Shown in pieces: positions 1-36,556 of a stretch of 64,000 bases of DNA. The stretch's first letter is position 1; each line of letters begins with the position of its first letter. Origin of the DNA: Chloroflexota bacterium (lineage in GTDB: Bacteria > Chloroflexota > UBA11872 > VXNJ01); assembly GCA_009840625.1 (NCBI GenBank), contig VXNJ01000001.1, forward strand, positions 124,001 to 188,000. The letters are read 5' to 3'. Both the position numbers and the translations under genes were made by a program. Below the pieces are notes generated by a model. It saw nothing but the letters and a program-made list of their open reading frames with translations, was not told the origin of the DNA and did no database searches.

Positions 1-174
1 CCAGGCCAGCAGTACCTGGCGGGCGGCGATCTCGACGTCGGACAACGCCGGTCGGTTAACGCCGCCGCCTGGCGTTGCGCCGATCTCGGCGAGCTGCATG
101 TGCCGGTTCCACAACCGCTGCGGGTCGATCAGCCGGGAAGCCGGACCCGATCCCGGCGCGCCCGCTTGATTCAC
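1..174 (-). CDS. M20-family amidase (hydantoinase/carbamoylase type), N-terminal part, runs off window
   Basis: Only the first 58 codons are present; the gene continues beyond base 1. The residues seen (R-L-W-N-R-H-M-Q-L-A-E-I-G-A-T-P-G-G-G-V then N-R-P-A-L-S-D) match the N-terminal signature of N-carbamoyl-L-amino-acid hydrolases and allantoate amidohydrolases, dinuclear-metal M20 peptidases that hydrolyse carbamoyl or ureido amides. The metal-binding residues lie outside the window, so substrate and activity cannot be judged. The start is GTG at 174, sharing four bases (GTGA) with the stop of the upstream alpha/beta hydrolase, which implies translational coupling as the last visible gene of the minus-strand operon that begins with the aminotransferase at 3014. 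Confidence 0.8.
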   Translation of the reverse strand, partial: MNQAGAPGSGPASRLIDPQRLWNRHMQLAEIGATPGGGVNRPALSDVEIAARQVLLAW

Positions 175-1049
175 GAAGTGCGCATGATCTGGTTGGGATC
201 GGCGCGCGGGTCGCGTTCCCGCCAGCCGCCCGCCTCGACCGAGGCGAGGAATCCCGCCAGCAGGCGGTTGAAGAGCTCGGGCTCCTCGAGGTTTATCGTA
301 TGCCCGGTCTTGGGCAACACGGCCAGTCCGCAAGCGGGGATCGTTCGCTTCAGGAAAATCCCCGGCTGGAGGCAGTGGTCGTCTTCATCCCCGCTGACGA
401 TCAAAGTCGGGGCCGCGATTGCCCCGAGATCTGCTTCGAGGTCGTAAAGCGAGGGCCGCCGGGCCTGGACGCCGCGCATCGTGTTGGCCGCTCCCAGCTC
501 CGAGTGCCTGGCCAGCCGCTCGGCGAATGTCCGCCAGCCGCGCGGATCCTTTCCCTGGAACTGGACGCGCGAAGCTCCCTCGGCGTAAACGGGGGCAAAT
601 TCAGCCGCGCCGCGTTCGAACCCGCCGGCCACCAATTCCGAAACTTCGCGGAAGTACTCTTCGTGCTCCTTTTCGGCGCCGTAGCCGGTTCCCGCCACGA
701 CCAGCGAGCGGACCATGCCGGGATGCCGAATGGCGGCGTGCAGAACCGCGAATCCACCCATCGACAACCCAACCAGGTGAGCCGGTTCGGCGCCGGCGGC
801 GCCCAGGACGGCGACGATATCGTCGGCCGCCCGTGCCTGCGAGTAGGCTTCTACGCTTGGCGGTACGTCCGAGGGCGGGTAGCCGCGGGCCGCGTAGGTG
901 ATGCAGCGATAGCGCCCCGCGAACGCTGATACCTGGGGTTCCCAGCTCCAGTAGCTGCCGGCGAATTCGTGCACGAAAACCAACGGATCGCCGCAGCCTT
1001 CTGATTCGTAGTAGAGGCGGACACCGTCGTCGGTGGTGGCGAACGGAAT
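171..1049 (-). CDS. alpha/beta hydrolase with apparent ATT start
   Basis: A 292-residue alpha/beta-hydrolase-fold enzyme. Counting from the proposed start, the nucleophile elbow G-L-S-M-G-G places Ser96, the acid lies in S-G-D-E-D-D (about Asp221) and the base in T-G-H-T-I (His250), so the triad is complete; H-E-F-A-G provides the oxyanion region. The family-typical beginning (P-F-A-T-T-D-D-G-V-R-L-Y-Y) lies upstream of the first conventional start (TTG at 983), and no in-frame ATG, GTG or TTG precedes it outside the neighbouring SDR gene. TAGGAG followed by seven bases leads to ATT at 1049-1047, which I take as the start. It sits between an SDR and an amidase in one operon. The substrate is unknown; an ester or lactone is plausible. 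Confidence 0.85.
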   Translation of the reverse strand: MPFATTDDGVRLYYESEGCGDPLVFVHEFAGSYWSWEPQVSAFAGRYRCITYAARGYPPSDVPPSVEAYSQARAADDIVAVLGAAGAEPAHLVGLSMGGFAVLHAAIRHPGMVRSLVVAGTGYGAEKEHEEYFREVSELVAGGFERGAAEFAPVYAEGASRVQFQGKDPRGWRTFAERLARHSELGAANTMRGVQARRPSLYDLEADLGAIAAPTLIVSGDEDDHCLQPGIFLKRTIPACGLAVLPKTGHTINLEEPELFNRLLAGFLASVEAGGWRERDPRADPNQIMRTS

Positions 1050-1062
1050 GGCAGTGCTCCTA
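1047..1062 (-). promoter_or_regulatory. Shine-Dalgarno TAGGAG with ATT initiation codon
   Basis: Read on the minus strand, TAGGAG occupies 1062-1057, its TAG being the stop of the SDR gene, followed by seven bases and ATT at 1049-1047. The spacing is ideal for initiation at ATT, and this codon opens a reading frame whose first residues match alpha/beta hydrolases. Initiation at ATT is inference. Confidence 0.55.
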
Positions 1063-1842
1063 GATGATCGAGTGGCGCGAGCTGATGCCGCCGTCGACCG
1101 TGACGATCGTGCCCGACGTGTACCCCGAGCGGTCCGAGGCGAGAAAAACCATCAGGTCGACGACCTCGGGAACGGTTGCCGGTCGGTTCAGCGGATAGCG
1201 TTCCAGCAGGCGGGTGAACTGGCTTTCGTCGCCGTACAGGTCAAGCGCGCGGCGCCGCAGGAGCTTGTAGATCCGCTCGGTTTCGACCGGACCCGGGTTT
1301 ACGCCGACGACACGGATCCCGTCATCCAGGCTGCGTCCGCCGAGCGCCCGGGTGAACGCCATCAGGCTGGCGTTGCCGGAGGTTCCGGCCACGTAGTCGG
1401 GGTCGTAAACCTGGCCGGCATTGCCGATGTTGTTGACGATGACGCCGCCACCACGGTCGCGCATGATCGGGTAAATCGTCCGGGTCAGATTGATGTAGCC
1501 GTACACCTTGAGATCCCACCCCTCGCGCCAGGAGGCTTCACTGACGGATTCCAGGTTCCCGCCCGGGATGCTGCCGGCATTGTTCACCAATATGTCAACG
1601 TCGCCCGCAACCGCAGCGATCGCGTCTATGACCCCGGGCGCGGTCAGATCGCCCGGTAGGATTTCGACCGCCACCCCGTAGCTTTCGCTCAACCGGGTCT
1701 TTACCGCCAGCAGGCGGACCTCGTTCCGGGCGACTAGCAGAAGGTTCACGCCCTCGCGCGCGAAAGCTTCGGCGAGCCCCTCGCCGATTCCCTGCGAAGC
1801 GCCGGTAATAAGCGCCCGCCGGCCAGCTAACTGAAGATCCAA
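1060..1842 (-). CDS. short-chain dehydrogenase/reductase lacking the YxxxK lysine
   Basis: A 260-residue classical-length SDR with the Rossmann motif T-G-A-S-Q-G-I-G near residue 14, the N-N-A-G motif and the C-terminal D-G-G-I end. The catalytic region is unusual: after a V-N-N-I-G-N-A-G stretch the Tyr is present in D-Y-V-A-G-T, but the position four residues later, normally the catalytic Lys, is Thr, and the usual Ser-Ser pair before it is absent. Such divergent SDRs exist, and their chemistry is not settled by sequence. The start is TTG at 1842 behind AGAGGT with six bases of spacing. The gene lies between an aminotransferase and an alpha/beta hydrolase in a probable catabolic operon. Confidence 0.9.
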   Translation of the reverse strand: MDLQLAGRRALITGASQGIGEGLAEAFAREGVNLLLVARNEVRLLAVKTRLSESYGVAVEILPGDLTAPGVIDAIAAVAGDVDILVNNAGSIPGGNLESVSEASWREGWDLKVYGYINLTRTIYPIMRDRGGGVIVNNIGNAGQVYDPDYVAGTSGNASLMAFTRALGGRSLDDGIRVVGVNPGPVETERIYKLLRRRALDLYGDESQFTRLLERYPLNRPATVPEVVDLMVFLASDRSGYTSGTIVTVDGGISSRHSII

Positions 1843-1883
1843 CCGCTACCTCTTTCGTGCTTCATTGATCCAACGAAGGGGAA

Positions 1884-3014
1884 TCAGAACAACTCGCTGG
1901 CGGCGACTTTCCCCCGGCATCGCGCGACCGCTTCATCGAGGTGATTACAGAACTCGGCGATCCATTCGCTCGGCACCGTGGTGCCCACCTTTACGAATCG
2001 CTCGGCGAAGCGGTCCGTGTGATACCTTGCCTGGCGAATGAGGACGTTGCGCTCGAGGTAGTACTCGCACAGCCGGTCGGGCGCGATCGACGCTCCGCTC
2101 ACGTCAATGCAGACGAAGTTGCCGTTGGATGGGTAAACGGTCAATGCCAGGCCCGGAATTGCATCGACCGCGTTCTTGATCGAGGCCTGGTTGGCAAGCT
2201 GTGCTTTATGGACCGCGGGAAACCACTCCGCCTTGTGCTGCAGTCCGGCCAGCGCGGCGCGCTGCGCCAGGACCGATGCGCCCAGATTGTTCGGCGGCGC
2301 CTCGGCCAACCGCGCAATCATTTCCGGCGACGCCACCAGGGCGCCGAGGCGCAGTCCGGCGATGCCGAGCCATTTGGAAAAGCTGTAGGTCGTGATCGTT
2401 CCTTCTGGGTAGTGCTCGGCGGCGAGCGAATGCCGGGCGGCGAAGTGGCGGTAGGTGCAGTCGTGGATCAGGATCGATCTGGCGGCGCGGCAGACTTCGG
2501 CAATTTCCCTCAATTCGTCTTCTGACTGGACCGACCCGAGCGGGTTGCTGGGATCGACCAGGTAGACCAGGCGGGTCCGGGGCGTGATTGCCGCGCGCAA
2601 CCGGTCGGGACAGAGCCTGAACCCGGCCGACCGGTCGTAGATCGGAATTTCCGAGACCGTGGCGCCGGCGCTGGCGGCGAAGCGGCGCGGCCAGAGCCAG
2701 CCCGGGTCGGTGAACAGCATTTGGTCGCCGGACCCGATCAGCGTTCGGCACGCGTGGTAGAGGCCTTCGATCGCCCCGTCGGTGACCAGCACTGAGAATC
2801 CGGCACCGACTCCGAGATCGGCGAGGATGCCCCGGCGCAGGGCCTCAAGCCCGAGCGGCGGCGCGTAAAGATGGAATTCGCCCGAATCTATGCATTTGAG
2901 CATCGCCTCCCGAACGGCCGGATGGGGCTGGAAATGGTTGGTGTTCTGACCCAGCCATCTGAGTTCACGGCGCGAGACCAGCTCGTCGAAATGGCGATTG
3001 CGGCGCTCAATCAC
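1884..3014 (-). CDS. class I/II PLP-dependent aminotransferase
   Basis: A 376-residue fold-type I aminotransferase of the histidinol-phosphate/aspartate aminotransferase superfamily. Visible cofactor residues are Asn157 (P-S-N-P-L-G), Asp185 and Tyr188 (H-D-C-T-Y-R), the Schiff-base Lys214 (Y-S-F-S-K-W) and Arg222 (G-L-R-L-G). The N-terminal part carries the substrate-side segment Y-A-P-P-L-G-L-E-A-L-R. It is the first gene of the minus-strand operon ending in a carbamoylase-type amidase, so a role in degrading an amino acid or ureido compound is plausible but inferred. The start is GTG at 3014 with no strong ribosome binding site. The 253 bases upstream hold no gene and should contain the operon promoter, which I could not pinpoint. 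Confidence 0.92.
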   Translation of the reverse strand: MIERRNRHFDELVSRRELRWLGQNTNHFQPHPAVREAMLKCIDSGEFHLYAPPLGLEALRRGILADLGVGAGFSVLVTDGAIEGLYHACRTLIGSGDQMLFTDPGWLWPRRFAASAGATVSEIPIYDRSAGFRLCPDRLRAAITPRTRLVYLVDPSNPLGSVQSEDELREIAEVCRAARSILIHDCTYRHFAARHSLAAEHYPEGTITTYSFSKWLGIAGLRLGALVASPEMIARLAEAPPNNLGASVLAQRAALAGLQHKAEWFPAVHKAQLANQASIKNAVDAIPGLALTVYPSNGNFVCIDVSGASIAPDRLCEYYLERNVLIRQARYHTDRFAERFVKVGTTVPSEWIAEFCNHLDEAVARCRGKVAASELF

Positions 3015-13250: not shown

Positions 13251-13263
13251 GAGGAATCCAATC
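13251..13263 (+). promoter_or_regulatory. Shine-Dalgarno GAGGA with ATC initiation codon
   Basis: GAGGA at 13251-13255 is followed by five bases and ATC at 13261-13263, in frame with the esterase. Between the in-frame stop at 13216-13218 and the conserved coding sequence there is no ATG, GTG or TTG. Initiation at ATC is inference. Confidence 0.5.
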
Positions 13264-14097
13264 GCCGCCAGAAGCCACGGCCGAATCCGCGCCCCGAGCG
13301 TTGCCGATGTTCCCTACGCGGACTTATCGCCCCGCAATGTCTGCGACATCTACCTGCCGCCGGCGGCGCCCGGCGCCGGACCCTGTCCGGTCGTGGTATG
13401 GATTCATGGAGGCGCATTCCGCATTGGCGACAAGCGCGACCTGAAGATGCCCGGTCCGATCCTGGACGCCGGGATGGCGATCGTGAGCATCAACTACCGC
13501 CTGAGCCAGCATGCGATATGGCCGGCCCAGCTTGAGGACCTGGCCAACGTGAGCAGGTTCATAAGGGCCAATGCGGCCGAATTCGGATTCGACGACGGCC
13601 GGCTGGCCGCGTTCGGGTCCTCGGCCGGCGGCCATCTGGCGGCGGTCATGGGGATCGCATTCGCCGACGATCCGGAATTGCGGATTGACGCGGTCGTGGA
13701 CTGGTACGGACCAATTCACTTCCAGCACATGGACAGCGACATCGCCTTAACCGGGGTGACACGCGGATCGCCTCCCAATGGAGAAGCCGGATCGCCCGAA
13801 TCGGACCTGATCGGCGCGGTCGTGAACGATCGCCCCGATCTGGCCTATGCCGCCAGCCCCCTGCATTACCTCGAATCGGCCGGCTCGGCGCCGCCGTTCC
13901 TGATCATGCACGGCGACCAAGACCCGCTGATCGGAGCCCCGCAGTCGGTACGACTGAAGGACGCCCTGCAGGAGCGATTCGGACCGGAAGCCGCAGAGTA
14001 CTACCTTCTATCCGACACGGGTCACGGGGGCGGCGCATTCGATTCGGATTGGGCGCAGGACCTGGTGGTTGGATTCCTCAGACGCACGTTGGCGTAA
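13261..14097 (+). CDS. BD-FAE-type alpha/beta hydrolase (esterase) with apparent ATC start
   Basis: A 278-residue esterase related to the BD-FAE/carboxylesterase group. The oxyanion motif H-G-G-A-F, the nucleophile G-S-S-A-G-G, the acid in H-G-D-Q-D-P and the base in T-G-H-G-G-G are all present. The characteristic lead-in V-P-Y-A-D-L-S, then D-I-Y-L-P-P, lies upstream of the first conventional start (GTG at 13393, directly before H-G-G), so a start there would remove two core strands. GAGGA and ATC at 13261 give the best beginning. It has no signal peptide. It probably cleaves acyl or acetyl esters; it follows a sugar-isomerase-like gene, which hints at carbohydrate esters. Confidence 0.85.
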   Translation: MAARSHGRIRAPSVADVPYADLSPRNVCDIYLPPAAPGAGPCPVVVWIHGGAFRIGDKRDLKMPGPILDAGMAIVSINYRLSQHAIWPAQLEDLANVSRFIRANAAEFGFDDGRLAAFGSSAGGHLAAVMGIAFADDPELRIDAVVDWYGPIHFQHMDSDIALTGVTRGSPPNGEAGSPESDLIGAVVNDRPDLAYAASPLHYLESAGSAPPFLIMHGDQDPLIGAPQSVRLKDALQERFGPEAAEYYLLSDTGHGGGAFDSDWAQDLVVGFLRRTLA

Positions 14098-36091: not shown

Positions 36092-36094
36092 ATC
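36078..36094 (+). promoter_or_regulatory. Shine-Dalgarno GAGAGGA with ATC initiation codon
   Basis: GAGAGGA at 36078-36084 is followed by seven bases and ATC at 36092-36094. This codon opens the GyrI-like gene exactly where family proteins start; no ATG, GTG or TTG occurs near it in frame. Initiation at ATC is inference. Confidence 0.5.
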
Positions 36095-36556
36095 AAACAG
36101 GAGTTTTCGACCCGCGAGATTCCGTCGCAACCAATCTTGGGAATCAGGGCCTCAACCACGATGGAGCAAGTCCCGCAGTTGCTGGGCGAACTCTTCGCGG
36201 AGGTCTACGAATTCATCCAAGACCAGGGCCAGCAGCCGGTCGGCATGCCGCTGACGCTTTACCACTCGATGGAGGGCGATGGACTCGAGCTGGAGTGCGC
36301 CATGCCGGTCGCTGCCGGAATCGCCGGATCAGGCCGGATCACCGCCGGTGAACTTCCGGCCACGCTGGCGGCCATCACGACCCACATCGGTCCCTATGAC
36401 GAGCTGCCCGGGGCGTGGTCGAATCTGACCGATTGGATGGAGAGCCAGGGGCTTGCCCCCGCCGGCGCTCCGTGGGAGGTCTACGTGACCGATCCGGGTG
36501 CCGAGCCGGATCCAGCCAAATGGCGAACGGATATCGTTTTCCCGGTCAGCAGATGA
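36092..36556 (+). CDS. GyrI-like small-molecule-binding protein with apparent ATC start
   Basis: A 154-residue stand-alone effector-binding domain of the GyrI/AraC-effector (SHS2-repeat) type. The opening F-S-T-R-E-I-P-S-Q-P-I-L-G-I-R, the middle P-L-T-L-Y-H-S-M and the end P-W-E-V-Y-V-T-D-P-G-A-E-P-D follow the family, including the Glu in W-E-V-Y that binds cationic ligands in relatives. It has no DNA-binding domain, so it may bind or hydrolyse a small compound or inhibit gyrase. The nearest conventional in-frame start downstream (ATG at 36161) would delete the first strand of the fold; ATC 36092 behind GAGAGGA restores it. Confidence 0.82.
   Translation: MKQEFSTREIPSQPILGIRASTTMEQVPQLLGELFAEVYEFIQDQGQQPVGMPLTLYHSMEGDGLELECAMPVAAGIAGSGRITAGELPATLAAITTHIGPYDELPGAWSNLTDWMESQGLAPAGAPWEVYVTDPGAEPDPAKWRTDIVFPVSR

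Follow-up and report, generated by a model that had tools for sequence, protein, structure and literature searches.

Our comparisons indicate that an alpha/beta hydrolase gene is very probably translated from an ATT codon at position 1049 of the window, that is, of the whole stretch of 64,000 nucleotides that was analysed (G000:C1:124001-188000, where G000 is the source genome of 2.27 Mb in 20 contigs). It is most likely that this ATT is a real but weak start, because the protein encoded behind it shows no excess decay. As judged from the sequence comparisons the hydrolase is not a one-off, since non-canonical starts recur through the same genome. The features of the locus are the following.

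1047..1049, minus strand: ATT, assigned as the hydrolase start codon on the basis of the homologue start column.
171..1049, minus strand: alpha/beta hydrolase, 292 aa from the ATT (Abhydrolase_1 match and homologues).
1057..1062, minus strand: TAGGAG, Shine-Dalgarno (SD)-like by direct reading, overlapping the SDR stop codon.
981..983, minus strand: TTG, first canonical codon of the hydrolase frame (residue 23), rejected as start on N-terminal conservation and SD absence.
1060..1842, minus strand: SDR gene, upstream in the same operon, with a TTG start (Pfam adh_short_C2, 1e-37; order kept in homologous loci).
1884..3014, minus strand: aminotransferase gene, upstream, belonging to the conserved gene set (Pfam Aminotran_1_2, 3.7e-42).
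1..174, minus strand: 5' end of the next gene, with a GTG start, running beyond the window (ORF L120:2909-4333).

Read from the sequence, the codon at 1049-1047 of the minus strand is ATT and opens a hydrolase frame of 292 codons, whose N-terminus, PFATTDDGVRLYYE, is like that of the family. Across the junction this strand runs TCG ATC ATC TAG GAG CAC TGC C / ATT CCG TTC GCC ACC ACC GAC GAC GGT GTC CGC CTC TAC TAC. The spacing between AGGAG and ATT is seven bases, and the SDR gene (1842-1060) ends with the TAG at 1062-1060, inside TAGGAG; direct reading thus confirms this arrangement, which had been given in a preliminary description of the window. The same description held that no canonical codon precedes the family N-terminus, and this is borne out: an open frame runs from 1151 down to its stop at 171, and between its opening stop and TTG 983 it contains no ATG, GTG or TTG. 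The predicted product matches Pfam Abhydrolase_1 (PF00561) from residue 22 (6.5e-21), its score of 75.6 bits being above the curated cut-off of 25.8. Assignment as the 3-oxoadipate enol-lactonase PcaD (TIGR02427) was rejected, as the score of 90.8 bits falls short of the equivalog cut-off of 255.85. A structured or riboswitch-like leader was also ruled out, there being no Rfam match in the hydrolase leader and no unusual folding.

Near gene starts, about 2.7% of the positions out of frame are preceded by a strong SD-like match, which represents the chance level. In the sampled part of the genome the hydrolase ATT is the sole ATT near a gene start that combines a strong SD with the lack of any canonical codon within 20 codons. 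Homology is decisive in taking the case for the ATT beyond chance, as every one of the 80 close homologues starts canonically at its column or nearby. These relatives, obtained from a scan of genome contigs, are 62-78% identical to the hydrolase and come mostly from Alpha- and Betaproteobacteria. At the column itself 64 are canonical (ATG in 61, GTG in two and TTG in one), and the remaining 16 start at a canonical codon placed -15 to +12 codons from it, so that none of the 80 is without one at or near this place. The orthologue alignment suggested in the preliminary description therefore gives a column that is mostly ATG and in no case ATT (0/80), the nearest of these homologues being just 78% identical, and among the compared sequences the ATT is private to the source genome. 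That nearest homologue (L034) has ATCTAGGATCTGCGCC-ATG where the window has ATCTAGGAGCACTGCC-ATT; its SD-start segment is TAGGATCTGCGCC-ATG, and the TAG overlap and the stop-to-start distance are identical to those of the window. Because the homologue starts are canonical at or near the column, and the SDR start is canonical in 67 of 67 homologous loci, the position of the start can be considered secure on comparative grounds, the codon itself being the oddity.

The order aminotransferase-SDR-hydrolase (window 171-3014) is kept in most of the 80 proteobacterial loci, with aminotransferase matches present at 68 of them. In a search of relatives, the other four genomes of the family yielded no close homologue of the hydrolase, and because the hits there reach 32% identity at best, this gene set was probably acquired horizontally. 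Given that probable origin the hydrolase could be dispensable. The next gene, judged by eye to be amidase/carbamoylase-like, begins with a GTG that overlaps the hydrolase stop as GTGA. The genes adjoining the hydrolase have GTG and TTG as first start codons, and its ATT is the most extreme in an operon of weak starts.

It could be proposed that the start of a horizontally acquired hydrolase was recently mutated and that the gene is no longer usefully translated, and the private nature of the ATT, together with the absence of the gene from the family's other genomes, would agree with this. We nevertheless consider it unlikely. The frame is fully open, the SD has been kept and there is no excess loss at conserved sites, although a very recent loss would be traceless, and the GTGA overlap means that lost translation would probably harm the next gene too. 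At conserved hydrolase columns the window deviates at 4 of 122; L034 also deviates at 4, and the median and maximum for the 80 homologues are 1 and 8. The protein, on this count, is intact and constrained.

A survey of 695 kb of G000, about one third of the genome (C1:1-608000 and C2), in which 533 genes were scored, looked for a coding signal beginning well before any canonical codon. The broad homology survey gave many false flags, in which alignments ran into the leader, and the count is restricted to genes that were compared manually with homologue columns or domain models. Seven genes in the 695 kb, the hydrolase included, have a conserved N-terminus but no canonical start. The others are as follows.

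Window 36092..36556, plus strand: GyrI-like gene, apparent ATC start (ATG at the column in 13 homologues; Pfam GyrI-like, 7.6e-19, from residue 4).
Window 13261..14097, plus strand: BD-FAE family hydrolase, probable ATC start (SD GAGG; alternative ATC at 13285).
C1:254343, minus strand: amidohydrolase, CTG (ATG in G001 and G003, TTG in G002 and G004).
C1:224061, minus strand: panC, CTG or the next codon, ATC (TIGR00018 match from residue 3).
C1:346092: murJ, ATA or a codon shortly after (family comparison).
C1:507369: yggS, ATC, or ATA seven codons on (first canonical codon beyond the conserved GENRVQEG).

The GyrI-like gene, which was found with a slightly wider filter than the other cases, has the SD GAGAGGAAA and keeps a purine-rich leader. 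Numbered from ATC 13261, the PF20434 match of the BD-FAE hydrolase starts at residue 28, and the first canonical codon, GTG 13393, is residue 45, 17 residues further on. For panC, an ATG, GTG or TTG is present at the next codon, or close to it, in almost every relative. The murJ genes of G002 and G004, two other members of the family, are also without a canonical codon before the conserved core (L267, L268, L269), and the sister family has GTG at the corresponding place; murJ of G003 was rejected because a usable GTG follows eight codons later, which leaves G000, G002 and G004 in the count. The start can be assigned firmly to one codon in the hydrolase, the GyrI-like gene and the amidohydrolase, and to within a few codons in panC, murJ, yggS and the BD-FAE gene. 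Three ATT starts with good SDs had been claimed for the window in the preliminary description. All three hold as non-canonical starts with an SD, but the two at 36092 and 13261 are ATC and not ATT.

A codon-level search of the sampled genome gave no sign that ATT, ATC, ATA or CTG is enriched behind strong SDs close to gene starts, and the lack of a general ATT excess was counted against the ATT start. The result can be explained by such starts being a small minority and by the generally weak use of SDs in G000. Strong SDs are infrequent in the sample, whose start codons are weakly ATG-biased (about 223 ATG, 153 GTG and 124 TTG by a nearest-codon count).

An error in the draft consensus, with a miscalled base in what is truly ATG (or GTG or TTG), would account for the canonical starts of all the homologues and might be expected in a draft of 20 contigs. 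We regard it as very unlikely, however, as several more genes with otherwise intact frames would need independent errors at their start codons, two of them (13261 and 36092) showing the same pattern in the same window, and three separate genomes lack a canonical start for murJ. The murJ genes of G002 and G004 in particular make sequencing error improbable as a general cause. Least likely of all is initiation at TTG 983, which would yield a product of 270 aa without the first 22 residues, for although this TTG comes before any other canonical codon of the frame, is the choice expected from a standard gene caller and lies close to where the Abhydrolase_1 match begins (residue 22), it has no SD at the proper distance, it leaves the SD at 1062-1057 unexplained, and similarity to the homologues begins at the ATT column and covers the conserved residues 1-22 instead of beginning after TTG 983, the pattern that the preliminary description had named as contrary to an ATT start.

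As a control the same gene caller was applied to 816 kb of proteobacterial loci, where 658 genes were scored. Thirteen of the 658 were flagged; several of them clearly start at the position usual for the family, and by eye none of the 13 showed clear N-terminal conservation upstream of its first canonical codon. The difference between 7/533 in G000 and 0/658 in the control (p = 0.0035) is indicative only, as scrutiny of the two sets was neither blind nor equal. Some further candidates were seen in relatives. In G002 an amidohydrolase (L212; G002:C11:213828, minus strand) has an apparent CTG start directly after an in-frame TAG and behind a full AGGAGGTGA SD, and an ABC transporter gene has CTG aligned to TTG in G001. 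In G006, which belongs to the sister family, has 70% GC and had its genes called with a seeded model, two or three candidates were judged without homologue comparison; at G006:C1:29434 (minus strand) and 384077 (plus strand), in L183 and L201, no canonical codon comes before the apparently conserved core. The infC gene, for which non-canonical starts are known in other bacteria, was used as a positive control. It is without an ATG, GTG or TTG start before the conserved N-terminus in G001, G002 and G004 (L169, L136, L135, L130-L134), and in G000 it has an in-frame ATG at the expected start.

Initiator tRNA and IF3 look normal in sequence and offer no explanation for relaxed initiation. Two copies of the initiator anticodon arm, GGGCTCATAACCC, are present in G000, and as the arm is normal an altered initiator tRNA was rejected as the cause. 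There is a single IF3 gene in G000. The C-terminal tail of IF3 is slightly different in G000 and G001 when set beside that of E. coli; the RGRE motif is kept, and no claim is made for an altered IF3.

If the hydrolase is translated from the ATT, pairing with AGGAG would bring ribosomes to this codon, and termination of the SDR at the TAG inside the SD would very probably assist initiation through coupling. The initiator tRNA, with its CAU anticodon, would read AUU with a third-position mismatch and insert methionine. In other bacteria IF3 rejects complexes on codons such as AUU, and for this reason the yield of hydrolase is expected to be below the AUG level and below the amount of SDR. By analogy with infC, sigR and cvfC1 this yield should be sensitive to IF3. 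We infer translation from the ATT, coupling, low yield and any regulatory use alike.

Start-codon rules look relaxed in the source lineage. It is possible, and we suggest it tentatively, that the choice of start codon has become relaxed to the extent that at least about 1% of genes, including panC, murJ and yggS, initiate at ATT, ATC, ATA or CTG and are truncated by standard gene callers. AUU starts are of an established but rare kind, and it would be unusual for non-canonical starts to account for close to 1% of genes. E. coli has two such cases, infC and pcnB, in some 4,300 genes, and if the suggestion is true the non-canonical share would be some 20 times that accepted for E. coli. Moreover, panC, murJ and yggS are conserved genes present throughout the relatives. 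Gene callers restricted to ATG, GTG and TTG would shorten or miss such genes, with the loss of N-terminal motifs. A genome with repeated ATH and CTG starts would provide a natural set of sites for testing the strictness of the ribosome towards start codons, and the same sites could be useful in asking if weak starts tune protein amounts within operons.

That ATT starts are very rare in bacteria, as the preliminary description stated, agrees with the literature, Belinky et al. having found 6 switches to CUG or AUU among approximately 68,900 reconstructed start codons (PMC5622118). The hydrolase is a new, well-supported candidate for an AUU start outside infC. It shares with the AUU, AUA and AUC starts of infC the character of a bacterial non-AUG start of the ATH type, and the AUU start of E. 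coli infC has measured activity, as described in PMC5472188; the weak start of infC, however, serves IF3 autoregulation, whereas the hydrolase has no such link. E. coli pcnB and S. aureus cvfC1/ccpN are likewise single genes with AUU or AUA starts. A reduced yield is given for these genes in PMC13009471, where pcnB is cited, and the AUU start of cvfC1 has measured activity (PMC13009471). Their weak starts were tested experimentally; those of cvfC1/ccpN are conserved among relatives whereas the hydrolase ATT is private, and the hydrolase differs also in encoding an enzyme of metabolism as part of an operon. In Streptomyces, sigR, with an IF3-repressed GTC start, resembles the hydrolase in having a non-canonical start missed by annotation (PMC5472188), but the codon is a different one and the regulatory role is proven for sigR and at most presumed for the hydrolase. 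Deinococcus deserti has non-canonical initiation codons, including an ATT (Baudet et al. 2010, as cited in PMC5559785). As far as that citation describes them, these starts were proved by proteomics, whereas those of G000, in another lineage, are deduced from comparative sequence, and the two are alike in having several non-canonical starts within one genome.
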